From Desulfobulbaceae bacterium (lineage in GTDB: Bacteria; Bacteroidota; Ignavibacteria; Kapaibacteriales; UBA2268): a stretch of 38,474 nucleotides of DNA. Every line of letters begins with the position of its first letter. Positions within the stretch are counted from its first letter, which is position 1. Below are positions 5,220 to 32,725 of this stretch, piece by piece. Under the pieces are notes generated by a model. That model was not told the origin of the DNA. It did no database searches and was given only the letters and a program-made list of their open reading frames with translations. The DNA is taken from the NCBI GenBank assembly GCA_018335795.1, contig JAGXRP010000037.1, positions 1 through 38,474 on the forward strand, given 5' to 3'. The position numbers and the translations under genes are program-made.

Positions 5220-5810
5220 ATGAAAACATTATTATTTTTAATCGCATTCTTTTTGATTCAAATTGAATTATTCGCTCAATGCCCTCCGGATTATGATGGT
5301 CCTGAAACAGTAACAATACAAGTTTGCGAGGGTTGTTCAATACAAGCCACTTGGTGCTGTGGCACAGTAATAACACTATTTGGAAATAAACCGGCAATAC
5401 ATTTTTCAGATATTTTAGTAATTGGTGAAAATTGTATTAATTGTTTGGATTGGGCTATGACTCCAAGTGGTTGGGGTGTACCAGCAATTCCTTGGGAGTT
5501 GCTTATCGGGGCTGTTATGGGTTCCCATAAATTATGTTATGAAGTACCTCCTGTACTACCACCATGTGACCCAGCACCACCAGCCTCGTATAATATGATT
5601 GTAACAAATGGCGGCTGTTATACTCGAACTGAAACTTTGGAGGGAATTAGATATACACCTTGTGATACCGATGTACAAGCACTTTGTTATGAAAACTACA
5701 AGATTTGCTGGGAATTTGTAAATGGAGATTGGAGTGTAAGAGTTGAGGGTAGTAATAAACAACCAGCGTTCAATTGCATGGCACCGGATTGTTACCCAAT
5801 GTGCGAATGA
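5220..5810 (+). CDS. Secreted cysteine-rich protein of unknown function
   Basis: 196 residues. A typical signal peptide (MKTLLFLIAFF..., ending LFAQ) should be cleaved by signal peptidase I before the first Cys; the residues around it do not form a lipobox. The mature part has 16 Cys in about 176 residues, with VCEGC, WCCG, NCINC and a C-terminal cluster CMAPDCYPMCE. The even number fits up to eight disulfides in a periplasmic or exported protein. I do not recognise the family, and there is no T9SS tail. A TTG four codons upstream (5208) is an alternative start; the ATG gives the better signal peptide. The next gene, 75 nt downstream on the same strand, is T9SS-sorted and equally AT-rich, so the two may be expressed together. 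Confidence 0.75.
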   Translation: MKTLLFLIAFFLIQIELFAQCPPDYDGPETVTIQVCEGCSIQATWCCGTVITLFGNKPAIHFSDILVIGENCINCLDWAMTPSGWGVPAIPWELLIGAVMGSHKLCYEVPPVLPPCDPAPPASYNMIVTNGGCYTRTETLEGIRYTPCDTDVQALCYENYKICWEFVNGDWSVRVEGSNKQPAFNCMAPDCYPMCE

Positions 5811-21200: not shown

Positions 21201-22691
21201 ATGTCAGAACAACCAAAAAGAAAACATTGGGTCAATTGGGCATTATTTGGTGCCACAGTTATTGTCGTATTCCTTGTAGGAATTTTTACTGCTCAAATCA
21301 TGGAACGTCGTGCAGAAAAAGTAGCACGATTCCAAATTATCAACGAATTACCCGAATACGAACCTCGTAATGAGGTTTGGGGCGAGAACTTCCCACGTCA
21401 ATGGGAAAGCTACCGCGGAACTTTGGACACAAACTTCAGAAGTGCGCACGGTGGTTCATCAAAAATTGATTATCTCGAAGAATTCCCCGAACTTGTTATT
21501 CTATGGGCAGGGTATGCCTTTTCAAAGGACTATAACCAAGGGCAAGGTCATGCCAATGCTATCAATAATATACGCAAGACTTTGCGTACAGGTGGGGCTG
21601 AAGATGCTCCTTTGCCCTCGACATGTTGGACATGCAAAAGTACTGACGTTCCGAGAGTAATGGCTGAAATCGGAGTCAAAGAATATTATGATAACAAATG
21701 GGTCAAAGTTGGGCAAGAATTTGTCAATCCGATTGGATGCCAAGATTGTCACGACCCGAAAACCATGAGTTTGCGAATTACAAGACCCGCTTTGATTGAA
21801 GCATTCGAACGTCAAGGAAATGATATTAAGGAATTTTCGCATCAAGATATGCGTTCGCTTGTTTGCGCTCAATGCCATGTCGAATATTATTTTAAAAAGC
21901 CCGGTAATTATTTGACTTTCCCATGGGACAAAGGTTTCTCGGCTGACGATATGGAAGCTTATTTTGACGAAATCGAATTTAGCGATTGGACTCATAAACT
22001 GAGTCGCGCCCCAATGCTCAAAGCACAACACCCTGATTACGAATTATTCATGACCGGTGTTCATGCCGAAAGAGGAGTGTCGTGCTCGGATTGCCATATG
22101 CCGTACAAAATGGAAGGTGGCGTTAAGTTTACTGACCACCACTTAAGTAGTCCACTCAGAAACGTTGCCGCTTCATGCCAAGTTTGCCACCGCGAAAGCG
22201 AAGCACAATTGATTAAAGATGTGACCTCGCGCCAAGATAAAGTATTGGAACTTCGTCGTTTGGCTGAGAAATCCCTTGCTGCTGCACATATCGAAGCTAA
22301 AGCAGCATGGGATGCAGGAGCGACTGAAACTCAGATGGCGCCTGTACTCAAACTTATTAGACACGCTCAATGGAGATGGGATTGGGTTGCTGCTGCTAAT
22401 GGTGTTGGATTCCATTCACCTGTTGAGGCTCTGAGAGTGCTTGGTACTTCAATCCAAAAAGCAGAACAAGCACGTGCACAAAACGCTCTTGTTCTTGTAA
22501 AATTAGGTGTCCAACTTCCTATCCCAATGCCTGATATTTCAACTAAAGAATTGGCTCAAAAATACATCGGACTCGATATAGACGCATTGAAAAAGGATAA
22601 AATCAAGCTTTTGGAAACTGTTGTCAAGGAATGGGATAAGCAAGCTTTGAAAAGACAAGGCACTTTAATTGATTATAAATTGAACAAATAA
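21201..22691 (+). CDS. nrfA: Cytochrome c nitrite reductase, catalytic subunit (ammonia-forming)
   Basis: 496 residues. N-terminal helix 11-33 (signal anchor). Five heme sites: CWTCK 142-146, the Lys-ligated catalytic heme that defines NrfA, and CQDCH 180-184, CAQCH 222-226, CSDCH 295-299, CQVCH 326-330. The calcium/active-site segment VEYYFKKPG follows heme 3, and the His in AQHPDYELF (H277) corresponds to the catalytic His. It reduces nitrite to ammonium with six electrons in the periplasm and also reduces NO and hydroxylamine. AAGGA precedes the ATG. Confidence 0.97.
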   Translation: MSEQPKRKHWVNWALFGATVIVVFLVGIFTAQIMERRAEKVARFQIINELPEYEPRNEVWGENFPRQWESYRGTLDTNFRSAHGGSSKIDYLEEFPELVILWAGYAFSKDYNQGQGHANAINNIRKTLRTGGAEDAPLPSTCWTCKSTDVPRVMAEIGVKEYYDNKWVKVGQEFVNPIGCQDCHDPKTMSLRITRPALIEAFERQGNDIKEFSHQDMRSLVCAQCHVEYYFKKPGNYLTFPWDKGFSADDMEAYFDEIEFSDWTHKLSRAPMLKAQHPDYELFMTGVHAERGVSCSDCHMPYKMEGGVKFTDHHLSSPLRNVAASCQVCHRESEAQLIKDVTSRQDKVLELRRLAEKSLAAAHIEAKAAWDAGATETQMAPVLKLIRHAQWRWDWVAAANGVGFHSPVEALRVLGTSIQKAEQARAQNALVLVKLGVQLPIPMPDISTKELAQKYIGLDIDALKKDKIKLLETVVKEWDKQALKRQGTLIDYKLNK

Positions 22692-22755
22692 ATTGTTTTT
22701 ATTTACTTTAGAACTTTAGTAATAATTGTTGAAATACTTTTTAACAGAGGGTTAG

Positions 22756-23958
22756 ATGAAAAAATTTACTGTACTATTATTGATTATTTTTCCTTATATC
22801 TTGAGTGCTCAAGATTGGGGAATCAAATTTAACGGTTTTGTCAAAACCGATGCGATGTTTGATACTCGCCAAAACGAAGCTGCTCGCGAAGGACATTTCC
22901 TATTATTTCCTTTAGACGAAAAGCAAGTTGAAGGTGGCGATGTCAACGAGACAATGAATTTCAATATGCTATCAATTCAAACGCGAATTACCGGCAAAAT
23001 CACAGCACCTGACTTTTTGGGTGCGAAAACCACAGGTATGATTGAAGGGGCATTTTTTGGTCATACGAATCCCGATATTAACGGTTTTAGATTGCGCCAT
23101 GCTTTTGTGAATTTGGATTGGGGTACATCAGAATTACTAATTGGGCAATATTGGGCGCCACTTTTTATTGACGAAGCCTTTGCCAAATCAATATCGTTCA
23201 ATACCGGCACACCTTTTCAGCCATTTTCTCGCAATCCGCAAATCCGCTATACAATAAAAGTAGATAAATTTCATGTGAACGTGGCTGCCTATTCAGAACG
23301 CGATTTTGCATCGAAAGGTCCTGACGGCGAAACATCAACTTATTTGCGAAACGCAGTTCTTCCTGTTCTGAATCTTGGTTTGAAATATAATACCGGAAGT
23401 ATGCTTTTTGCCGTCAATGCAAATTACAAATCCATCAGACCAAGATTGTTAACCGAAAAGAATCATATTGACGAGAACAAAGTTAATGCAATGACTTTCA
23501 ACGGTGCTATTAAATATTATGTCGAGGATTTCTTTGTTACTTTGCAAGGCTTATACGGACAAAACACATCGGCATTAACGATGCTTGGAGGCTATGCTAT
23601 AACAGCGATTGACGAAGAAACCGGCATGTGGGAATACACTCCATTAAATACTTTCTCCGGCTTTATTGATATGGAATACGGCAAAGTTTGGAAAATCGGA
23701 TTTTTGGGTGGGTATACACAAAATCTTGGTGCCGATGAAAATATCCGAGGTACTGTTTATGCGCGTGGTGCAAACATTAACAACGTTCTCCGTATTTCGC
23801 CAAGGCTTTCATATCGCACAGGAATGACTCAGTTCTCGACTGAAGTGGAAATGACACAAGCAGCTTATGGAACAAGAGCTACTTCAAAGGGTGTTATCGA
23901 AAACACTCACGATGTTATGAACATTCGTGTACTTTTAGCAGCAATATTATATTTCTAA
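22756..23958 (+). CDS. Outer-membrane porin-like beta-barrel protein
   Basis: 400 residues. Signal peptide about 1-18 (ends LSAQ), then alternating beta strands with aromatic girdle residues, ending in a hydrophobic strand (MNIRVLLAAILYF) with terminal Phe as for outer-membrane barrels. WGIKFNGFVKTDAMFDTRQ near the start and RLRHAFVNLDWGTSELLIGQYW are typical of the DcaP/porin-like group that includes alginate- and organic-acid-type porins. It lies 64 nt after nrfA without a promoter that I can see, so it is likely co-transcribed and may admit nitrite or an electron donor; substrate is inference. A terminator follows. Confidence 0.75.
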   Translation: MKKFTVLLLIIFPYILSAQDWGIKFNGFVKTDAMFDTRQNEAAREGHFLLFPLDEKQVEGGDVNETMNFNMLSIQTRITGKITAPDFLGAKTTGMIEGAFFGHTNPDINGFRLRHAFVNLDWGTSELLIGQYWAPLFIDEAFAKSISFNTGTPFQPFSRNPQIRYTIKVDKFHVNVAAYSERDFASKGPDGETSTYLRNAVLPVLNLGLKYNTGSMLFAVNANYKSIRPRLLTEKNHIDENKVNAMTFNGAIKYYVEDFFVTLQGLYGQNTSALTMLGGYAITAIDEETGMWEYTPLNTFSGFIDMEYGKVWKIGFLGGYTQNLGADENIRGTVYARGANINNVLRISPRLSYRTGMTQFSTEVEMTQAAYGTRATSKGVIENTHDVMNIRVLLAAILYF

Positions 23959-23983
23959 GAAAAATTTTCTTTGCATATTAAAG

Positions 23984-24014
23984 TCAACCATTTTATAGTG
24001 GTTGATTTTTTTTT
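23984..24014 (+). terminator. Terminator after the nrf-porin genes
   Basis: The stem is tcaacca (23984-23990) with tggttga (23999-24005), an 8-nt loop, followed by an unbroken run of T. Confidence 0.75.
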
Positions 24015-24028
24015 AATTATAATAAATA

Positions 24029-24060
24029 TTTGCATAATTGAACAATGTTCATTATTTTTG
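24029..24060 (+). promoter_or_regulatory. Promoter and operator of the TetR-type regulator
   Basis: TTTG (24029-24032), exactly 20 nt, TATTTTTG (24053-24060) match the Bacteroidota promoter consensus. Between them lies the perfect palindrome TGAACA-A-TGTTCA (24039-24051). A repressor bound there would cover the space between -33 and -7, the expected arrangement for TetR autorepression. Confidence 0.65.
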
Positions 24061-24106
24061 CGTTGTTGTAATATTTATATTGTAAATAATATTTAAAGAT
24101 GTTAAG

Positions 24107-24697
24107 ATGGACAAGAAGGAAATTCAAGAGCAAAGAATGAAGATGTATTTCATCAATGCTACCAAAGAGTTACTGAAAGGCGAAGGTCTTAAAAGTATCA
24201 GTGTGCGTAATATTGCCGAAAGAGCCGGCTACTCGTTTGGAACGCTGTACAATTATTTTGATGATGTTAAGGAGTTGATATTTATATGCGTCGAAGATTT
24301 CCAAACGGAGTGTCGGGAATTTATCGAAGAAAGAACCAAAACTCAAGCACAAGGAAAAGATAAACTTCGCGCTATTGTCAAATATTACATGTTCTATTTT
24401 GTTCAATATCCGGGAATTTTTGAATTGTTCTTTTTGGAACGTGCTAATGATGTGGGTAATAAAAAATCAACATTCGAGATGATATACTCGTTTTTAGATA
24501 AATTAAGTCGCGATGAGTGGAAGTATCTCGTTGAGCAGAGTGCTTTGAGCAAGCAACAAGCTCGGTTGAAGGCTGAAATCACAAAAAACATGGTTGTCGG
24601 AATGTTGATTTTTTACCTCAATAGACATAATCCTCAGTCATTTGATGAATTTTTGCAAAAAACTGAAATTTTATTAGATGAAATTCTGAATTTTTGA
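24107..24697 (+). CDS. TetR-family transcriptional regulator
   Basis: 196 residues. N-terminal helix-turn-helix: LLKGEGLKSISVRNIAERAG, YSFGTLYNYFDDVKEL (residues about 22-57), a clear TetR signature. The ligand-binding half is helical with FELFFLERANDVG, like the family branch in which the regulator controls a nearby transporter. The palindrome in its promoter is probably its own operator. It is followed on the same strand by the ZIP transporter gene with no promoter evident between, so the transporter is the natural co-regulated target. Confidence 0.9.
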   Translation: MDKKEIQEQRMKMYFINATKELLKGEGLKSISVRNIAERAGYSFGTLYNYFDDVKELIFICVEDFQTECREFIEERTKTQAQGKDKLRAIVKYYMFYFVQYPGIFELFFLERANDVGNKKSTFEMIYSFLDKLSRDEWKYLVEQSALSKQQARLKAEITKNMVVGMLIFYLNRHNPQSFDEFLQKTEILLDEILNF

Positions 24698-24759
24698 TTT
24701 GAGCATTTTGTCATTTGAAAGATTTGTATTACGTTACGAAAAAAAATCGGTTAAAAAAT

Positions 24760-25572
24760 ATGTTAGAATGGGCAAATCGTCAAGACGTAGTGTTGTTGGC
24801 ATTGTATGCTTCACTTTTCACTTGGAGCATAACTGCATTGGGAGCAGCAACTGTATTCTTTTTTAAAAGCATAAATAAACGCGTACTGAATGCTATGCTG
24901 GGTTTTGCAGCCGGAGTAATGATAGCTGCATCATTTTGGTCATTGCTCAATCCCGCAATCGAAATGGCGGAAGCAATGGGAATGATTCCTTGGGTTCAAG
25001 CTGTGGCAGGCTTTTTAAGCGGAGGGCTTGCACTCTTCTTAATTGATAGAATATTGCCCCACTTGCACTTAGGTTTGCCACGAACTGAAGCTGAGGGTAT
25101 CAAAACTTCGTGGCATAGGAGCATATTGCTTGTCCTTGCTATCACATTACATAATATTCCTGAAGGACTTGCAATCGGGGTAGCTTTTGGAGCATTGGCA
25201 ACTGATATGCCCGGTGCTTCAATGGCCGGAGCAATTGCTTTGGCATTAGGAATTGGCTTGCAAAATTTCCCGGAAGGTGCTGCGGTATCTGTCCCTTTGC
25301 GCCGTGAAGGCTTTTCCCGTTTGAAAGCGTTCACTTATGGGCAAGCTTCGGCAATCGTTGAGCCAATTGCAGCTGTTGTGGGTGCTTATGCTGTAATTAC
25401 TTTTTCATCTGTATTACCATTTGCGCTGTCTTTTGCCGCAGGTGCGATGATATTCGTTGTTGTAGAAGAATTAATTCCCGAATCGCAACAAGGCAATGAC
25501 ACCGACACTTCAACGATAGGCGCTATGCTCGGTTTTGCCATAATGATGGTGCTTGATGTGGCATTGGGGTAA
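24760..25572 (+). CDS. ZIP-family divalent metal transporter (ZupT/ZIP11-like)
   Basis: 270 residues, about eight membrane helices. The metal-binding helices carry [15 protein letters not shown] (ZIP signature) and [18 protein letters not shown], and [12 protein letters not shown] follows in a later helix, so the binuclear site residues are in place. A His-containing loop (LPHLHLG) lies in the cytosolic region. The family takes up Zn, Fe or Mn. I chose the ATG at 24760; the frame is open from a TTG at 24715, but that adds only a Lys-rich extension. It is 62 nt downstream of the TetR gene. Confidence 0.9.
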
Positions 25573-25598
25573 AGGTTGGAAAAAAGGTTAATCATTAT

Positions 25599-25639
25599 TC
25601 TCCGCATAATCAAAATAATCTCCGCAAATTGTGCGGAGA
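25599..25639 (-). terminator. Terminator between the convergent ZIP and methyltransferase genes
   Basis: The hairpin tctccgca/tgcggaga (25619-25639) has a 5-nt loop. On the minus strand it is followed by ttattttgatt. A second copy of tctccgcataat occurs at 25599, so a longer alternative stem is possible. It may work for both genes. Confidence 0.55.
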
Positions 25640-25669
25640 AAGTTTGGATAGGGATTTTGAGAGTCGGAA

Positions 25670-26590
25670 TTAAGCTACAACAAGGTGCAATGCTAATTGC
25701 TCGGGTCTTTCTTTCAAACCGTGATTATGAGATGTGATATGGTCTGTATCAAAATTACAAACTAACGCTTCTACAATTGTTCGTCTGTTTTCAATATTAG
25801 GACCATTATGATAAAAATGGTCTTTAGTCACAATGTTGAATTTGCTCCAAAATTTATTTATCATTTCATTTTCTCGCCAGTCATTATGATGCCAAGTTGA
25901 AAGAATAAATTTCGCCTTTGTTTCAGTCAATAGCTTAAACAAAAGTTCTTCATCTTGCTCTTTCCAACCGTTGTAATAATCAACGTGCCTGCCATAATAA
26001 GGTGGATCGCAATAAATAATATCGTCTTTAGTAGCAAGTGGAATAATATCTTCAAATGACTTGTTGTAAAAAGTCCAGTCCGGTTCGGGTTGAATAATTT
26101 GCGAAACTGTCGCTAATTGATTCGTAATTTTGGTAATATATGCTTGAGCAAATCTTTCAGGTTTTTTGCAAAAGGGAATGTTCCAATTTCCTTTACTACC
26201 AAATCTCATCATACCATTGAAGCCGGCGCGAGAAAGAAAAATAAAATCATATGGTGAAAATTCTCCGCTATTGAACCTTGTCCTTACTTTCAGATAATGC
26301 TCATAGCCTTTATTGTCGGCTTTCAATAAAAGTTCACCTTCTTTTTCGAGGTAGTGTTTCATCAAAGGTGCAGTGATTGTCTTTTGCTGCACACCTTTGT
26401 AGAAATTAATGATATGAGGATTTGTGTCGTTAAGAATTGCCTTTTTGTAACTGGAATTGAAAGCTACTACACCGGTTCCCAAAAACGGCTCAATCCACTT
26501 GCCGCTTACCTTTGGAGCAAGTTCCATTATCCAAGGTACTAACTTTGTTTTTATACCCTGACTTTTTATTGGTGGGACGAATACTTTCAT
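25670..26590 (-). CDS. Type II adenine-N6 DNA methyltransferase, M.EcoRV-like
   Basis: 306 residues, D12/Dam class. Motif X-like KTKLVPWI, motif I EPFLGTGVVAFN (34-45, AdoMet binding) and motif IV DPPY (195-198). The stretch GRHVDYYNGW followed by TWHHNDWREN and KDHFYHNGP closely matches what I recall of M.EcoRV, which methylates the first A of GATATC. The start overlaps the endonuclease stop by 4 nt, so the order is R then M and translation is coupled. The class normally protects the host from the partner nuclease. Length is close to the 298 residues of M.EcoRV. Confidence 0.92.
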   Translation of the reverse strand: MKVFVPPIKSQGIKTKLVPWIMELAPKVSGKWIEPFLGTGVVAFNSSYKKAILNDTNPHIINFYKGVQQKTITAPLMKHYLEKEGELLLKADNKGYEHYLKVRTRFNSGEFSPYDFIFLSRAGFNGMMRFGSKGNWNIPFCKKPERFAQAYITKITNQLATVSQIIQPEPDWTFYNKSFEDIIPLATKDDIIYCDPPYYGRHVDYYNGWKEQDEELLFKLLTETKAKFILSTWHHNDWRENEMINKFWSKFNIVTKDHFYHNGPNIENRRTIVEALVCNFDTDHITSHNHGLKERPEQLALHLVVA

Positions 26591-27504
26591 TTTGATTTGT
26601 CTCTTATGGTTCTTGCTACAATTTTATCCCATAGGTCTGTTCTGCCTTTAAACTCCAAAAAAGCTTTAAGTGTCGTGATTTTGATTGGGATGCCGTCTTT
26701 AACCATTGTGGCAGTGCCATGATTTATCCAATACTCGTCAAACCATTCTTCACCCAACTGACTAAAAATTCCGTTCTCATTTTTCAAGTCGGCAATGTCC
26801 AAAATTGAGCCAATATTCGCAGTATTTCCGGAACCTTGTTTGTCGCTTGCAATTTTCCATTTCTCTGCTGCAAAAAAGTCGAAGTTCTTGATTACTGAAG
26901 TGATAGATTTCAAATTCTTTACAGTTGTTACTTCACGTTGTCCAACTTTTTTGTTGGGTGTTTCATAGTCTTCTTGAAGTTCTTTAACTTGATAAATTTC
27001 AGTGTCAGTTATATCATCTTTAAAGTCTGTCCGAGTGTAAATTACACCTAAACAATAATGTCCAGTATATTGGCTGTAGGGGAATTGTATGTTTTTGTCT
27101 TTGTCTCTCTCTTTGAAGTAACCACCGTGACTTCCAAGTGTAAAACCCGCAGTTTTATTGTTTCGTCTGAAAGTTGTTTTGATGTCAAGAGCGAACTTTA
27201 CTTCCTCGTTATTCTTATTTACAAAAGTTAGGTCAGGATACCAATTTTGCTTCTCTGCAAGAATAATCTTGTATCCGATACTATCGGCAAACTGTAAAAT
27301 TTGAGGGAAGATGTGTATTTCAAGAATTTTTGAGACAATTTTGGTGTCTGATGAAATCGTATAAATGTTTTTGTAAACGTCAATAAATCCCTTTACAGTC
27401 CAGTCGCCATTATCGGTAGAAACATATTTTTCCAGTTTGTCAGCAAACTTGACAAGTTCACTTTTGAAGTCATTTTTATATTTATTTTTTTCGTCTAAAT
27501 TCAT
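26587..27504 (-). CDS. Type II restriction endonuclease, EcoRV-like
   Basis: 305 residues, compared with 245 in R.EcoRV. The catalytic PD-D/EXK site is complete: D91 in NWYPD, D107 and K109 in LDIKTT, with the same 16-residue spacing as D74/D90/K92 of EcoRV, and E62 in the position of EcoRV E45. The Q-loop KQNWYPD and the recognition loop GSGNTANIGS (from about 224) are nearly the same as QNHYPD and GSGNTTN of EcoRV, so the predicted site is GATATC, cut blunt. Extra sequence is at the N-terminus (about 30 residues) and before the recognition loop (about 25). The ATG is 4 nt after a TAnnTTTG element (27516-27509). Confidence 0.92.
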   Translation of the reverse strand: MNLDEKNKYKNDFKSELVKFADKLEKYVSTDNGDWTVKGFIDVYKNIYTISSDTKIVSKILEIHIFPQILQFADSIGYKIILAEKQNWYPDLTFVNKNNEEVKFALDIKTTFRRNNKTAGFTLGSHGGYFKERDKDKNIQFPYSQYTGHYCLGVIYTRTDFKDDITDTEIYQVKELQEDYETPNKKVGQREVTTVKNLKSITSVIKNFDFFAAEKWKIASDKQGSGNTANIGSILDIADLKNENGIFSQLGEEWFDEYWINHGTATMVKDGIPIKITTLKAFLEFKGRTDLWDKIVARTIRDKSK

Positions 27505-27565
27505 AATTCAAATGTAGTTAAAAATGTAGAAACTTTACCGAGCATGAGTATTAAAATATATATTT

Positions 27566-27796
27566 TTACTCTTGCAATTGTCTTTCCAACTTGTCCGCAA
27601 GCCATACTTTGATTATTGATTGGCGAGTTACCCCGAGCCGATTTGCTTCATCATCAAGTTTTGCAATCATCCAAAGAGGCAAATCTACATTGACTCGCTT
27701 CATCTCACGAGATAATTTTTTCGACTTTTTAATATCCAAATAAGCAGTGAGGCCTTCTCCATCGTCAAATTTCTTGTCAAATTCTTGCGCTTTCAT
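27566..27796 (-). CDS. Ribbon-helix-helix antitoxin (BrnA/CopG type)
   Basis: 76 residues. A ribbon-helix-helix DNA-binding segment occupies about 34-72 (KRVNVDLPLWMIAKLDDEA, NRLGVTRQSIIKVWLADKL): a basic beta strand followed by two helices. The N-terminus, with DDGEGLTAYLD, is the likely toxin-binding part. It overlaps the upstream toxin gene by 20 nt, the standard coupled arrangement of type II toxin-antitoxin pairs with toxin first. It is expected to neutralise the toxin and repress the operon. Confidence 0.82.
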   Translation of the reverse strand: MKAQEFDKKFDDGEGLTAYLDIKKSKKLSREMKRVNVDLPLWMIAKLDDEANRLGVTRQSIIKVWLADKLERQLQE

Positions 27797-28049
27797 ATAT
27801 TTTAATCTCCTCTATTCTTGAACGTCTTACTGATATTATCCTAACTCGATTTATACGATATGTTATTACCGCTGACCAATGTACACCGTCAATTTTTCCG
27901 ATAATTAAAAATCTTGGTTCGTCCACTGTAATTGCAGGTATCTCTATCGCATCAGCATCTGCCCATAATTCTTTCGATTTTTCGAAATCAATATTATGCT
28001 TGGCAAAGTTATTGACACTTTTTGATACATCGTATTCGAATTCAAACAT
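27777..28049 (-). CDS. BrnT-family (DUF497) toxin
   Basis: 90 residues, the usual length. Pattern: FEFEYDVSKSVNNFAKHNIDF at the start (F-x-x-D-x-x-K-x-x-x-N-x-x-K-H-x-I-x-F), a middle strand VDEPRFLIIGKIDG and the end RVRIISVRRSRIEEIKIYE, matching BrnT (R-I-I-S-x-R-x-A/S-x-x-x-E). BrnT adopts a RelE-like ribonuclease fold and arrests translation. The toxin precedes its antitoxin. A Bacteroidota-type -7 element TATATTTG lies at 28102-28095 upstream. The pair sits next to the restriction-modification genes. Confidence 0.85.
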   Translation of the reverse strand: MFEFEYDVSKSVNNFAKHNIDFEKSKELWADADAIEIPAITVDEPRFLIIGKIDGVHWSAVITYRINRVRIISVRRSRIEEIKIYESARI

Positions 28050-28094
28050 TTTAAAAACAATTATTTAATATGTAAAAAAGATATACTTTCTACT

Positions 28095-28102
28095 CAAATA
28101 TA
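28095..28102 (-). promoter_or_regulatory. Candidate -7 element of the toxin-antitoxin operon
   Basis: TATATTTG (TAnnTTTG type) on the minus strand, about 46 nt upstream of the toxin ATG. No TTTG lies at the expected -33 distance, so this is weaker than the nrfHA and tetR promoters. Confidence 0.35.
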
Positions 28103-28136
28103 AAACGATAATTTGAAATTTATATTTGAATCAATT

Positions 28137-29021
28137 TTATTTCCGCCGTTTTTCAAAAAAGCCGCCCACTTCGGAAATGAAAAGCCCAGCCATCATGATT
28201 GAAGCGCCGATGTACTCGCGAATGTTTAAGTATTCCGATAGAGTTAGGGCTGCAATGAAACCTGCGATTACCGGTTCGAGCGAGAATATCAATGCCGCCT
28301 TGACCGGTGTTGTATATTTCTGGACGCCAGTGTGGATGAATGTCACAAAAAATGATGCAAGAATGCCATTGAAAGCGAGTGCTATGAAGAGGTCTTTGGT
28401 TGGATTGAAATAAATATCACCATAATCGAGTAGGAAAAATGAAATTACTGCAAGCGGTGTTGCGGCAATGAATTGCATAACTACATACGCAGCTGTAAGA
28501 TTGAATCCGCGATCGTTCTTGGTGTATTTATCCATCAATGTGATGTAAAACGCCCAAAAGAATGTAGATAGTAGCGTTAAGACATCGCCGAAATTGATGT
28601 TGTCTATGCTTGGGTCGGTGAAAATGTACAAACCGATTGATGATACAGCGACACCAATTTTTGACCATAATTGAATTGGTTTGCGCTGAATCAGGTAAAA
28701 AACGAACGGAGTAATCGGGACGGTCATGCCGGTAATAAATGCAGATTTGGATACTGTTGTATAGCTCAATCCATAAGTTTGGAGCAAAAATCCTCCGCCA
28801 AAAAGCAAACCGAGAATTGCGCCACGTTTGAAAATTACGCGGTCTATTGATTTGAGATGCTTTCCGAAAAATGCCAATGAGAGCAATAGTGCAATGCAAA
28901 ATCGCAAAATTACAAATAGTGATGGAGGGCAATCGTCCAGCCCAACCTTAGTGAAAATAAATGTAGCTCCCCAAATGAAGGTAGCCGAAAATAGCATTAA
29001 TTCAGCTTTCCAAGATTTCAC
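28137..29021 (-). CDS. EamA/DMT-family transporter
   Basis: About 294 residues, ten membrane helices in two EamA repeats. The first helix begins AELMLFSATFIWGATFIFTK and the second repeat has FGDVLTLLSTFFWAFYITLM and ALIFSLEPVIAGFIAAL, the typical signature lines. The family exports metabolites or amino acids. No ATG lies at the expected N-terminus. I chose GTG at 29021, preceded by GGAAG; TTG at 29039 is an alternative, and the first ATG (28997) would trim the first helix. It lies 45 nt after the L,D-transpeptidase stop, so it is probably the third gene of the POT operon. Confidence 0.88.
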   Translation of the reverse strand: MKSWKAELMLFSATFIWGATFIFTKVGLDDCPPSLFVILRFCIALLLSLAFFGKHLKSIDRVIFKRGAILGLLFGGGFLLQTYGLSYTTVSKSAFITGMTVPITPFVFYLIQRKPIQLWSKIGVAVSSIGLYIFTDPSIDNINFGDVLTLLSTFFWAFYITLMDKYTKNDRGFNLTAAYVVMQFIAATPLAVISFFLLDYGDIYFNPTKDLFIALAFNGILASFFVTFIHTGVQKYTTPVKAALIFSLEPVIAGFIAALTLSEYLNIREYIGASIMMAGLFISEVGGFFEKRRK

Positions 29022-29066
29022 TAATTGTAGCTTCCACAAAAATTTTAAACCACAAAAATAAGCATT

Positions 29067-30230
29067 TTATCTCATGGAAGAAGAATCTTGATTTATTGGC
29101 TTAAATTCAGGGTCTGATTCTGATTTTGAATCGGCTTCTTTGGCTTCTCCAGCTTCTTTTTTCAGTTTTGCAGCTTTTTTCTTTCGCCTTAGTTCGTTGA
29201 AATCAATAGATTCTGTCAATACCACTCCTTCGCGGATATGTCCACGTGCTCGCAAAGTATCTTCAGCGACAACATATCTCTTCCTATCGGGAAGTATTCC
29301 ACGTGATGTTTTAGGAATTTGTTGAATTGGAATATATGCCTCTTCAAATTCCATCGGATTCTCGGGGACATCAATCAAAAAATCTTTATTGGATTTGAGT
29401 GCGAACCAAGGTCCTGTCTTTGGACGAGTGAAGTCGAAGACATCAAGGATGAGAACAGGTGTTCCTGTCAGATGAATGTAAATATTATTTGAATCTAATT
29501 TTCCACGTTGTCCCCATTTATAAAGCCATTCGGCATCATCGAGAAATTGCCTGACGCAAGAGTGCGAGGCGGCGTAACCGGGCATATCGAATTTGTGGAA
29601 TGCACTCCCCGAAAAACGATGAAAATTCCACGTAAATGGCATTATCCAAGTGCTGTCTAAAGAAGATTTCCGTACTTCCTGTTTCCAAACTAATGCATAT
29701 CTACCCGGGAAAGTTGGTGTTTTTTCCTTGCCTGTATTTGCAGCTGCAAACCGAACTTGAACACCGTTTTCATAAGCTGCGTAACATTGCCAACGATTCG
29801 ATACCAGAATTAATTTCGGTATATCGCGTGCTCCGTGATAATATTGGGGGAAAATCGAATAAGCGCACATGTTATCGAAATATTCCTTTGGGACTACGAC
29901 AGTATCACCAACTTTTACAAAGCGCCTTTCTTTCCGATTTAGTGTCAAAAAAGCTTTATTAATTGAGGGATTTTTCTCGTCCATTTTGAACTGTTCCCGT
30001 ATTTCGGCTAAGTGCTTATTATCTCGAATTACAATATGTTCGTATTCGATAAGTGGATATTTATCGTGTTTTGCGATTAATTCTGCTAATTCGACAGAAT
30101 CTTTATGAGCTTGTTCCAATTCTGCTTTAATCTCATCTTCTCTTTCTTCCGATTCGCTTCTACGGCTTTCGGAACAAGATGAAATCGAGATGACAATTGT
30201 TAGAACAATTACATATTTTAATAAAACCAA
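29067..30230 (-). CDS. YkuD-type L,D-transpeptidase lipoprotein
   Basis: About 387 residues. With the TTG at 30230 the protein starts with a compact lipoprotein signal (VLLKYVIVLTIVISISSC, Cys19), with GGA upstream. The frame is open back to an ATG at 30299, but that overlaps the transporter gene and adds an unlikely extension. Next come a charged coiled segment and a LysM-like piece (FLTLNRKERRFVKVGDTVVV). The YkuD domain contains HKFDMPGYAASHSCVRQF. The catalytic Cys (about 225) and both His are present, but the usual SHGCVR is SHSCVR. The C-terminus is Lys/Glu-rich. The enzyme class crosslinks peptidoglycan (3-3) or anchors lipoproteins to it in the periplasm. Confidence 0.82.
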   Translation of the reverse strand: MVLLKYVIVLTIVISISSCSESRRSESEEREDEIKAELEQAHKDSVELAELIAKHDKYPLIEYEHIVIRDNKHLAEIREQFKMDEKNPSINKAFLTLNRKERRFVKVGDTVVVPKEYFDNMCAYSIFPQYYHGARDIPKLILVSNRWQCYAAYENGVQVRFAAANTGKEKTPTFPGRYALVWKQEVRKSSLDSTWIMPFTWNFHRFSGSAFHKFDMPGYAASHSCVRQFLDDAEWLYKWGQRGKLDSNNIYIHLTGTPVLILDVFDFTRPKTGPWFALKSNKDFLIDVPENPMEFEEAYIPIQQIPKTSRGILPDRKRYVVAEDTLRARGHIREGVVLTESIDFNELRRKKKAAKLKKEAGEAKEADSKSESDPEFKPINQDSSSMR

Positions 30231-30243
30231 ACTATTTTCCAAT

Positions 30244-31659
30244 TTAAAAGTTAGATGATTCACGTGCACCGATAAATTTTTGATACAAAAGTAATCCAAC
30301 GATACAGAAAACGCCTATTCCACTAAAAAGTAGCCATAATTCGGCAGTATGAGCATGCGTTGAGACTTGTTCTTTAGTGATTCCAGCACCTTCAGCGATT
30401 GCTATTAAATCAGGGATTTTTATATCATCGGAAATTGTAGCACTCGGCACACTATTGCGAACGAAGGCAATCATCGGATTATCAACTAACTTAACATATA
30501 ACCATGCACCTAAATAGCCACCCACGAATGAACCAAAGAATCCGTACAAAAATCCAAATCCCATATAAGTTGCTTTTTTATCCTTAGGAGCTATCAGACC
30601 CAAATATGATATATACTTTGGATGTGCAGTCATTTCGCCGATTGAGAAAAGAATTATTCCGGCTAAGAAAATCCAAATATTGTTGCTGAATGCCAAAATT
30701 GCCATTCCTATCGTACCCATCGAAATCCCAACTATCAATGTGGGAAGTGCTTTCGTGTTTTTAACTATTGATGAAACAAACAGTTGCAGCGCAATAATTG
30801 TGAATGCGTTCACAACGGTAACGTGCTCTACGTCAAATTTCCAATCAAGTCCAGTTACTGAATGTACAAAATTATTGAGTGCTGATGCATCAACAAATTG
30901 TTGCACATACCACAATACCGAATCGAACATTTGGAAATACAGAATCCAGAACCAAGAGTAAATAAAAATAAAAAGCATAAAACGCCAATCCATGAAAACC
31001 AAGCCGATTTTCTTCCCAATATCGCCAAATATTGCGAAAATGGAATTTTGCGAATCGTCAATCTTTTCTCGTTCAGGTTCTTTATATAAAAACAAAGTCG
31101 GAATCAACATAAGTGAAGTTATAATTGCTGCCATAACCAACACATATGACCAATCCATAGACTTCAGCCATGGCACTACAACCAAAGGAAATATGAATGC
31201 TCCGAGGTTGATAGACCAATAAAAGATGCCGAATCCGAGACCACTGTTTGTTTCGTCTGTGACTTTTGCAATAGTTCCGGAAATAATCGGTTTAAACGTT
31301 CCGGCTCCGAAAGCCATTATGAGCAAAAACACAAAGACAGCAAGATAATCTGTTACTTGCGCCGTGAGGTAATATCCGATACCGAGCAGCGAAAATGCCA
31401 CCATCAATGTTTTCCGATAGCCTAATCTATCAGCAATTGCACCGGATAGAATCGGTAAAAAATAAAGCAGGGGTTGAATTGTACTTTTGATTGTGCCAAC
31501 TTCGGTCTTTGAGAAACCGAGCATATCTGTCAAATAGACCGACAAGATGCTCATAACGCCGTAATAAGCGCCACGCTCGAAAAACTCGAATACAATAACT
31601 ACCCAATATGTAGGCGGGAAATCCCGAAATGAAGCCTTCTTTTTTAATTCTGAATTCAT
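30244..31659 (-). CDS. POT/PTR2-family proton-dependent oligopeptide transporter
   Basis: 471 residues, 12 or more membrane helices. The POT proton-coupling motif ExxER is present at E25-x-x-E28-R29 (FEFFERGAYYG), followed by DMLGFSK, ADRLGYRKTL (MFS loop 2-3) and AFGAGTFKPIISG. A later conserved helix has FSIGEMTAHPKYISYLG. The family imports di- and tripeptides with protons. It is shorter than E. coli DtpA (500). It is the first gene of a leftward operon; the L,D-transpeptidase starts about 13 nt after its stop. Confidence 0.87.
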   Translation of the reverse strand: MNSELKKKASFRDFPPTYWVVIVFEFFERGAYYGVMSILSVYLTDMLGFSKTEVGTIKSTIQPLLYFLPILSGAIADRLGYRKTLMVAFSLLGIGYYLTAQVTDYLAVFVFLLIMAFGAGTFKPIISGTIAKVTDETNSGLGFGIFYWSINLGAFIFPLVVVPWLKSMDWSYVLVMAAIITSLMLIPTLFLYKEPEREKIDDSQNSIFAIFGDIGKKIGLVFMDWRFMLFIFIYSWFWILYFQMFDSVLWYVQQFVDASALNNFVHSVTGLDWKFDVEHVTVVNAFTIIALQLFVSSIVKNTKALPTLIVGISMGTIGMAILAFSNNIWIFLAGIILFSIGEMTAHPKYISYLGLIAPKDKKATYMGFGFLYGFFGSFVGGYLGAWLYVKLVDNPMIAFVRNSVPSATISDDIKIPDLIAIAEGAGITKEQVSTHAHTAELWLLFSGIGVFCIVGLLLYQKFIGARESSNF

Positions 31660-31677
31660 AAATTTACTTTTTTAATA

Positions 31678-31708
31678 TAAAAAAAAGCCGATTCCAAAAT
31701 ATACGGCT
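31678..31708 (-). terminator. Terminator after queG
   Basis: The stem agccg/cggct (31686-31708) has a 13-nt loop. On the minus strand it is followed by eight or more T. It separates the MBL-Rieske-queG operon from the POT operon. Confidence 0.65.
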
Positions 31709-31753
31709 TACTAAATTAATAAAAAGTGTGAAATCAAAAATTAAAAATTTTGA

Positions 31754-32725
31754 TTATTTTGTTTTGAGCGATGTTTGCAAAGCTTTTGAGTTTCGTTTCA
31801 AACCAAGTAATTTTAGCCGTTTGATTGGAGATTTACTAAATCGCTCGGTGAATTCGATATCCGACATCTGAGCAATAGAGTCATGCTGCAATACTGTACT
31901 GCCATTCCGGGGTTGGAATGAAACAAAGTCTGTAATTTTAGGTTTATTTTTATTCCATGGACAAACTTCTTGGCAAATATCGCATCCGAAAATCCATCCC
32001 TCCATTTTTTCGCTTATTTCCGTCGGGATTTCGATATGATGTTTTGCTTCGATAGTCCAATATGACAAGCATTTTCGCGAATCAACCACTCCATCGGCGA
32101 CAATTGCATCAGTCGGGCAGGCTTTGATACATTTGACACATGTTCCGCATTTGTCGGCAATTGCTGTATCAGGTTCGAATTCGGCTGTAGAAATAATAAC
32201 GCATAGAAAAAAATACGAGCCATAATCAGGCGATAGCACGAGGCTATTTTTACCTTGCCATCCGATTCCCGCTCGCACAGCCCATTGCTTTTCGAGAATG
32301 GGACCTGTGTCTATATAGCAGAGATTCTTAGAATCGGGAAATTCTTGGATTATAAGCGATTCGATTTCTTTTATTTTGGGCATCAAAACGTCGTGATAAT
32401 CATCGCCCCAAGCATACCTTGAAATTTTGCCTGCATTGACTTCCTTGATTTCGAATTGTGGATAATCAATCCCTGTGTAGTATGAATGGCTCAAAACGAT
32501 TACAGATTTTGCATTTTCGAGCACCAGCCCGATGTTGCGTCTTTTTTCTTTGTTACGTTCAAGCCACTGCATATCGGCGTGCATACCGTCATCCAACCAT
32601 TTTTGCATATTAGCAAATTCTGCGATTAATTCTTTAGCTTTTGCTATTTTCAAATCCAAAAAACCAAGTTTGGAAGCATGTGCTTTCAATTTATTTTTGA
32701 GCATTGTTGAAGTATTGGGCGACAT
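31754..32725 (-). CDS. queG: Epoxyqueuosine reductase
   Basis: 323 residues from the ATG at 32725. It catalyses the last step of queuosine synthesis, reducing epoxyqueuosine in tRNA, with cobalamin and two [4Fe-4S] clusters. Visible: LDDGMHADMQWL near the N-terminus, DTGPILEKQWAVRAGIGWQG (cobalamin and substrate region), cluster motif CGTCVKCIKACPTDAI, then CDICQEVCPWN. The N-terminal Met of the open frame (32737) overlaps the Rieske gene; the ATG at 32725 forms TAATG with its stop, so translation is probably coupled. A further ATG lies at 32704. No other queuosine gene is in the window. Confidence 0.95.
   Translation of the reverse strand: MSPNTSTMLKNKLKAHASKLGFLDLKIAKAKELIAEFANMQKWLDDGMHADMQWLERNKEKRRNIGLVLENAKSVIVLSHSYYTGIDYPQFEIKEVNAGKISRYAWGDDYHDVLMPKIKEIESLIIQEFPDSKNLCYIDTGPILEKQWAVRAGIGWQGKNSLVLSPDYGSYFFLCVIISTAEFEPDTAIADKCGTCVKCIKACPTDAIVADGVVDSRKCLSYWTIEAKHHIEIPTEISEKMEGWIFGCDICQEVCPWNKNKPKITDFVSFQPRNGSTVLQHDSIAQMSDIEFTERFSKSPIKRLKLLGLKRNSKALQTSLKTK

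Follow-up and report, generated by a model that had tools for sequence, protein, structure and literature searches.

A probably mobile EcoRV-family restriction-modification pair with a Bacteroidota-type promoter box at a fixed distance from the nuclease start codon

The window (the whole stretch of DNA analysed here, 38,474 nt) very probably carries a mobile, apparently intact EcoRV-family Type II (IIP) restriction-modification (R-M) system whose one promoter is carried along with its genes. In the proposed mechanism, the endonuclease (R) would cut unmethylated GATATC as a dimer and the methyltransferase (M) would methylate an adenine in the same site. Both would be expressed from a single promoter within the cassette, marked by a -7 box of the Bacteroidota type; the transcript would start on the R AUG, giving an mRNA that is probably leaderless for R, and translation would reach M through an ATGA overlap, presumably by coupling. 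EcoRV relatives are common in the phylum and, as an enzyme, the pair adds little; what seems to be its sole new point is the promoter box fixed against the R start codon, which yields a concrete and cheap prediction of how an R-M system without a controller gene is expressed in Bacteroidota. An earlier sequence-only reading had proposed an EcoRV-type R-M pair in an FCB-group bacterium, and sequence, structure and relatives all support that identification. Its coordinates, the order of nuclease then methylase and the 4-nt overlap were right; both open reading frames lie on the minus strand. Papers are cited below by PMC number, for the excerpts of them that were available.

The R gene (26587..27504, minus strand, 305 aa) was assigned from its open reading frame, Pfam, a PDB match and a structural model. 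The Pfam profile Endonuc-EcoRV (PF09233) matched R with an E-value of 2.9e-101 and 338.4 bits (curated cut-off 25), and a PDB sequence search with R at E-values up to 1 returned eight matches, all of them EcoRV, the best at 3.3e-30. Aligned with EcoRV, R is identical at 81 of 242 residues. The EcoRV catalytic residues D74/D90/K92 correspond in this alignment to D91/D107/K109 of R, as the sequence-only reading had it, and E45, K38 and Q69 are likewise kept, as E62, K55 and Q86. The Q-loop and the recognition loop had been described as nearly identical to those of EcoRV; this holds in that Q69 and six of the seven loop residues are retained, with two differences, K85 in place of Q68 and an alanine in place of T187 (GSGNTTN, 182-188, in EcoRV; GSGNTAN, 224-230, in R). 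The alignment with R.EcoRV that had been proposed as a check sets the two loops against each other. Elsewhere R carries the substitutions Y95F and S112G. In a 47-sequence alignment that includes relatives from viral contigs, D91, D107, K109, Q86, G224, S225, N227, T228 and N230 are invariant, among others.

The structure prediction proposed earlier was run on R. The AlphaFold2 model, built from 47 sequences, reached a pLDDT of 84.1 and a pTM of 0.83, and superposes on EcoRV over 233 residues with a Z-score of 24.2 and an rmsd of 2.8 Å; the next non-EcoRV entry, SwaI, has a Z-score of 11.5. Foldseek likewise placed EcoRV first, at 2.4e-18, with the next family at 0.034. By sequence and by model, the membership of R in the EcoRV family and its EcoRV fold are well supported. 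Sixty-three residues of R have no partner in EcoRV: 17 at the N-terminus, modelled as part of a helix spanning residues 3-28, 22 before the recognition loop (178-199), 20 within 249-305 and 4 elsewhere; conversely, three EcoRV residues have no partner in R. The extra length had been placed at the N-terminus and before the loop, which is correct for those 17 and 22 residues and overlooks the 20 toward the C-terminus. The 22-residue insert before the loop (26908..26973, minus strand), identified from the alignment and the model, is shared by a clade, occurs in some members of the long branch but not in others, and is poorly modelled: in a 16-sequence alignment it is present in L006, L008, L009, L011 and L012 and absent from L001-L005 and L023-L027. 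Most of it lies in the segment with pLDDT under 50 (residues 176-193), which suggests that the insert is probably flexible.

The M gene (25670..26590, minus strand, 306 aa), identified from its open reading frame and profiles, belongs to the D12/Dam family of N6-adenine methylases and has the motif DPPY at residues 195-198. It matched the Pfam profile MethyltransfD12 with an E-value of 6.4e-44 and 151 bits, and NCBIfam names it a Dam-family methylase. Long segments shared with M.EcoRV had been noticed from the sequence, and the alignment bears them out, with 162 of 295 aligned residues identical (55%).

Based on the conserved residues of R and the similarity of M to M.EcoRV, GATATC is the best prediction for the recognition site. 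The window contains four GATATC sites, compared with 10.2 ± 3.1 expected from dinucleotide shuffles, and at least four occurred in 99 of 100 shuffles. The sequence-only reading had listed these four positions correctly and completely as evidence that the site is not avoided locally, which is misleading given the expectation of 10.2. For whole genomes, the ratio of observed GATATC to a Markov expectation, derived from sample contigs that were picked for convenience and not at random, was 0.52 for the window's genome and 0.37 for a second R-bearing genome, against 0.75, 0.67 and 0.96 in three genomes without R. In the G000 sample, GATATC ranked 12th of 64 palindromes by observed over expected, several of those above it having expectations under 3. 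Among congeners, those with R hold 678 sites in 3.53 Mb and 662 in 3.6 Mb, and one without R holds 564 in 3.2 Mb. Since the density in this R-less congener is similar to that of its R-bearing relatives, site counts neither prove nor refute GATATC, and site avoidance was dropped as a test of it.

That GATATC sites are not depleted relative to the R-less congener would also suit an enzyme of the same family with a different or relaxed specificity, for instance for a related palindrome, whose loop and backbone contacts differ from those of EcoRV as T187A in the loop, Q68K, Y95F and S112G might imply. We consider this unlikely, given that G-S-N-T-N in the loop and also Q69 never vary, either in the alignment with EcoRV or in that with the viral-contig relatives, and that M is so close to M.EcoRV over its 295 aligned residues. 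A preprint on wild Bacteroides acidifaciens points the same way (PMC12694586): eight methylated motifs were reported there, and removal of the only one of them present in a plasmid, GATATC according to the methods, gave transconjugants, the enzyme behind the motif being unnamed in the text available.

The genes of the predicted GATATC system are arranged as in most of its relatives. The stop codon of R and the start codon of M share the sequence ATGA (26587..26590, minus strand, 4 nt, from the two open reading frames). We compared this junction across 81 loci, namely the window and the best 80 relatives. An exact 4-nt overlap was found in 42 of the 71 measurable loci, and the distance from R to M lay between -11 and +5 nt in 69 of them; the two exceptions are L068, where R ends early and leaves a gap of 101 nt, and L084, where R and M form one 620-aa frame. 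The ten loci outside this count have a split R (L044, L046, L082, L092), a start that was not called (L059, L061, L064), a split M (L049) or no M (L071, L107). Of the 80 relative loci, 78 have an M after R, and in the other two, L071 and L107, the record ends within 100 nt of R. Because 69 of 71 junctions are tight, a nuclease gene followed closely by its methylase gene is a property of the whole branch. The length of R, the gene order, the overlap and the lack of a controller had been presented as unusual; all four proved normal for the branch, and a nuclease gene ahead of its methylase gene in one operon has precedents in EcoRI and Eco29kI (PMC3874152). The supposedly odd features are thus common to a large natural branch, and this correction is itself of use.

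Several of these loci have features of their own. The frame in L084 (3022-4884) is a natural fusion of an EcoRV-type R with a methylase (PF09233 and PF02086). R is split or shortened beside M in L044, L046, L082, L092 and L068, and in L049 it is M that is split, next to an R that looks intact. A Dam-family methylase of a second and clearly distinct type follows an R of the same branch in L065, L075, L076, L078, L083-L085 and L089, and also in L092, L093, L096, L097, L101, L102, L104 and L105 (16 loci in total, counted from scores of 302-331, compared with about 450-650 for the other M proteins). Its association with R proteins from within the one branch suggests that partners have been exchanged.

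Broken R genes beside an intact M, as in L044, L046, L082 and L092, raise the question of whether the window itself holds a decayed or inactive system, a relic or an orphan methylase only. This is very unlikely: both open reading frames in the window are full length and have their catalytic residues, and a congener encodes an R and an M that match them at 95-96% identity.

EcoRV-type nucleases are widespread around the window's lineage. Of 395 genomes sampled from the phylum, 14 carry PF09233, counting the genome of the window; none of 14 controls does. Among species genomes, at least 595 stretches match a pattern and at least 518 encode a relative; the best 80 of these are 90% to 66% identical to R and are labelled mostly Bacteroidota, with some Chlorobiota, Ignavibacteriae, Marinimicrobia and Nitrospirae. 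Typically, these best 80 have an R of about 300 aa, with M after R at a junction that is tight or overlaps by 4 nt. Relatives also occur in 12 plasmid records and on 28 viral contigs, the latter at 30-53% identity, and no tblastn match was obtained among 50,697 phage records.

A close counterpart in a Chitinophagales metagenome-assembled genome (JAEUVA010000020, L028) has an R of 305 aa that is 90% identical, the 4-nt overlap and the same -7 box with a spacer of 4, but its upstream flank is unrelated to that of the window. On plasmids, Rhodothermus marinus pRMAR01 (NC_013502) encodes an R 52.5% identical (L003) followed by M with a 4-nt overlap, and Antarctobacter pSMS3-1 (NZ_CP022541) an R 51% identical followed by M with a 1-nt overlap. 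Neither has an annotated C gene beside the pair, as in the window, and both differ from it in having no 22-residue insert before the loop. The EcoRV system itself (E. coli plasmid pLG13, NC_005019) has homologous R and M, the same active site and fold and a nearly identical loop. It differs in that a helix-turn-helix C gene precedes R, M is divergent (PMC5333194) and R has 245 aa, whereas the window has an R-M tandem without C, an R of 305 aa and a promoter of the Bacteroidota type.

This promoter was recognized from its -7 element. In Bacteroidota, the positions T-12, A-11, T-8, T-7, T-6 and G-5 of this element are nearly invariant, and probable promoters begin transcription 4 or 5 nt downstream of it (PMC6847099). 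The window has TACATTTG at 27509..27516 on the minus strand, matching the -7 consensus TAnnTTTG, 4 nt before the R ATG; between the box and that ATG stands AATT (27516-27505, minus strand). Among 74 loci with 60 nt of upstream sequence, an exact box has a spacer of 4 in 28 and of 3-5 in 35, counts that are not independent, since the loci are related. In a close set of 33 loci (the window and L028-L063, minus four without a cleanly called R), which was picked after the pattern had been noticed, the exact box lies at a spacer of 4 in 24, and at least five of the six positions match at a spacer of 3-5 in 31, the exceptions being L043 and L049. The background was 3 exact boxes and 7 with at least five of six matches at a spacer of 3-5 in 165 host-sample open reading frames of at least 150 aa, with the first ATG taken as start.

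Shared ancestry was weighed by comparing loci whose upstream regions are otherwise unalike. Of the 528 pairs of the 33 close loci, 514 have flanks counted as unrelated, with less than 45% identity over -100..-31. In these pairs, the six positions of the box reach column identities of 0.68-0.94 and those at -19 to -16 of 0.50-0.88, against 0.24-0.40 at the two free box positions, the spacer and -15 to -13 and a mean of 0.27 over -100..-41. Ancestry alone would have conserved the free positions too, so selection appears to act on the box and on its spacing from the ATG. The T-rich stretch at -19 to -16 fits the AT-rich motif reported at -18 (PMC6847099). Farther out in the branch the arrangement loosens: many more distant members have a box at least 18 nt upstream or no exact box, and of 15 measurable loci with the second methylase type, the exact box is 18-30 nt upstream in six, at a spacer of 3-4 in two and missing in the rest.

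The spacing of the box would put the start of transcription on or beside the R AUG, and a leaderless R mRNA, predicted from sequence, is the simplest reading. Such transcripts are rare in the phylum: in B. thetaiotaomicron, some 3.7% of 5' UTRs are shorter than 10 nt (PMC7366714), and in F. psychrophilum leaderless transcripts make up 5.5% of the mRNAs (PMC9723704). In E. coli, leaderless transcripts are reported to have lower initiation and to be absent from EcoRV, according to the available text of PMC5333194. Leaderlessness could thus hold R below M on entry into a new host. Among the literature matches listed, none deals, by title and abstract opening, with a leaderless restriction gene of EcoRV type or from Bacteroidota.

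In EcoRI and Eco29kI, the M promoter lies inside R, and the window differs from them in that its R contains no exact -7 box on either strand. Counting exact boxes of the -7 type only (TAHHTTTG), we found 4 sense boxes in the 33 close R genes, the window's included, compared with 22.3 ± 4.3 after synonymous codon shuffling (22.6 ± 3.7 in a repeat), and 29 antisense boxes compared with 41.7 ± 5.5. Another 41 R genes had 17 sense boxes (28.2 ± 4.2 expected), which brings all 74 to 21 against 49.0 ± 5.8, with at least one exact box in 18 of the 74; the size of this deficit overstates the evidence, given that these R genes share ancestry. No such shortage is seen in 147 host open reading frames (95 against 91.0 ± 6.7), so it is not a general one; the 77 M genes had 27 sense boxes against 32.5 ± 4.0. 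The scarcity of sense boxes inside R favours one bicistronic mRNA and disfavours the pattern of EcoRI and Eco29kI. A Kozak-like start signal, which in Bacteroidota consists of A at -3 and -6 (PMC6847099), was considered as evidence on M and set aside: upstream of 57 M starts, A occurs at -6 in 39 and at -3 in only 24.

The limits of the cassette were drawn by comparison with congeners. R was not found in congener G396, whose homology to the window breaks off at 25639 and is picked up again at 27564, giving an approximate R-M cassette of 25640..27563 that takes in about 59 nt before R. In G396, a Fic gene takes the place of R-M between the same transporter and the BrnA-BrnT-EamA block. In congener G395, R and M are present at 95 and 96% identity, and at that place BrnA is present and BrnT missing. 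The cassette may accordingly have been gained or lost between congeners. At L178:4538-5641 and 5640-5752, the Fic gene of G396 is of the DUF4172-Fic type and has repeated CTCCGCA...TGCGGAG motifs upstream; a copy of this motif stretch remains in the window at 25589-25639.

Directly upstream of R, on the same strand and 61 nt before it, the window has a BrnA-like antitoxin of the CopG type (27566..27796, minus strand) and a BrnT toxin (27777..28049, minus strand), both identified by Pfam and by congener comparison. The sequence-only reading had stated that there is no controller gene. Its statement stands in that four EcoRV-family C proteins gave no phmmer match among the open reading frames of window 22001-32000, although it had overlooked BrnT/BrnA. 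Position, strand and the CopG-type antitoxin could suggest that this pair is part of the system, with BrnA as controller and R-M driven from the toxin-antitoxin promoter, and on the Acinetobacter plasmid pANC7454.2 (L026:1344-1932) BrnT-BrnA lies directly before an EcoRV-like C-R pair with a convergent M. We hold this to be highly improbable. R-less G396 keeps BrnT/BrnA in the same place, with homology breaking just past the BrnA stop codon, and G395 keeps R-M where BrnT has been lost, so that BrnT/BrnA is a resident neighbour outside the R-M system and was ruled out as its controller. Moreover, R carries its own -7 box, and BrnT/BrnA was found in none of the 80 relative loci (phmmer, E 1e-4), about 60 of which have at least 1 kb of upstream sequence.

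The same four C proteins gave no match in the 81 loci at E 1e-4. This phmmer search is only moderately sensitive, and the absence of a C gene is therefore firm for the window and less so for each relative: the C proteins of EcoRV and Acinetobacter detect each other at 3.5e-10 and those of Geobacillus and Leuconostoc at 1.2e-8, and across these groups only Acinetobacter and Leuconostoc do so, at about 0.01. One open reading frame upstream of R in L065 (4213-4560) has a weak match to C proteins (6e-4 and 2e-3).

A broader and more speculative reading, which we find possible but doubtful, is that the controller gene has been replaced in cis in the Bacteroidota branch of the EcoRV family. A single mRNA, made from a portable promoter whose -7 box is fixed against the R start, would yield R by weak, leaderless initiation and M by coupled and more efficient initiation. 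Selection would act against M promoters within R, and the M:R ratio would be set by translation alone. Such a cassette would work in any Bacteroidota host and be silent outside.

Elsewhere in the window, positions 21201-22691 hold a gene of the cytochrome c552 family (Pfam, 571 bits), which we take to belong to the NrfA nitrite reductase family.
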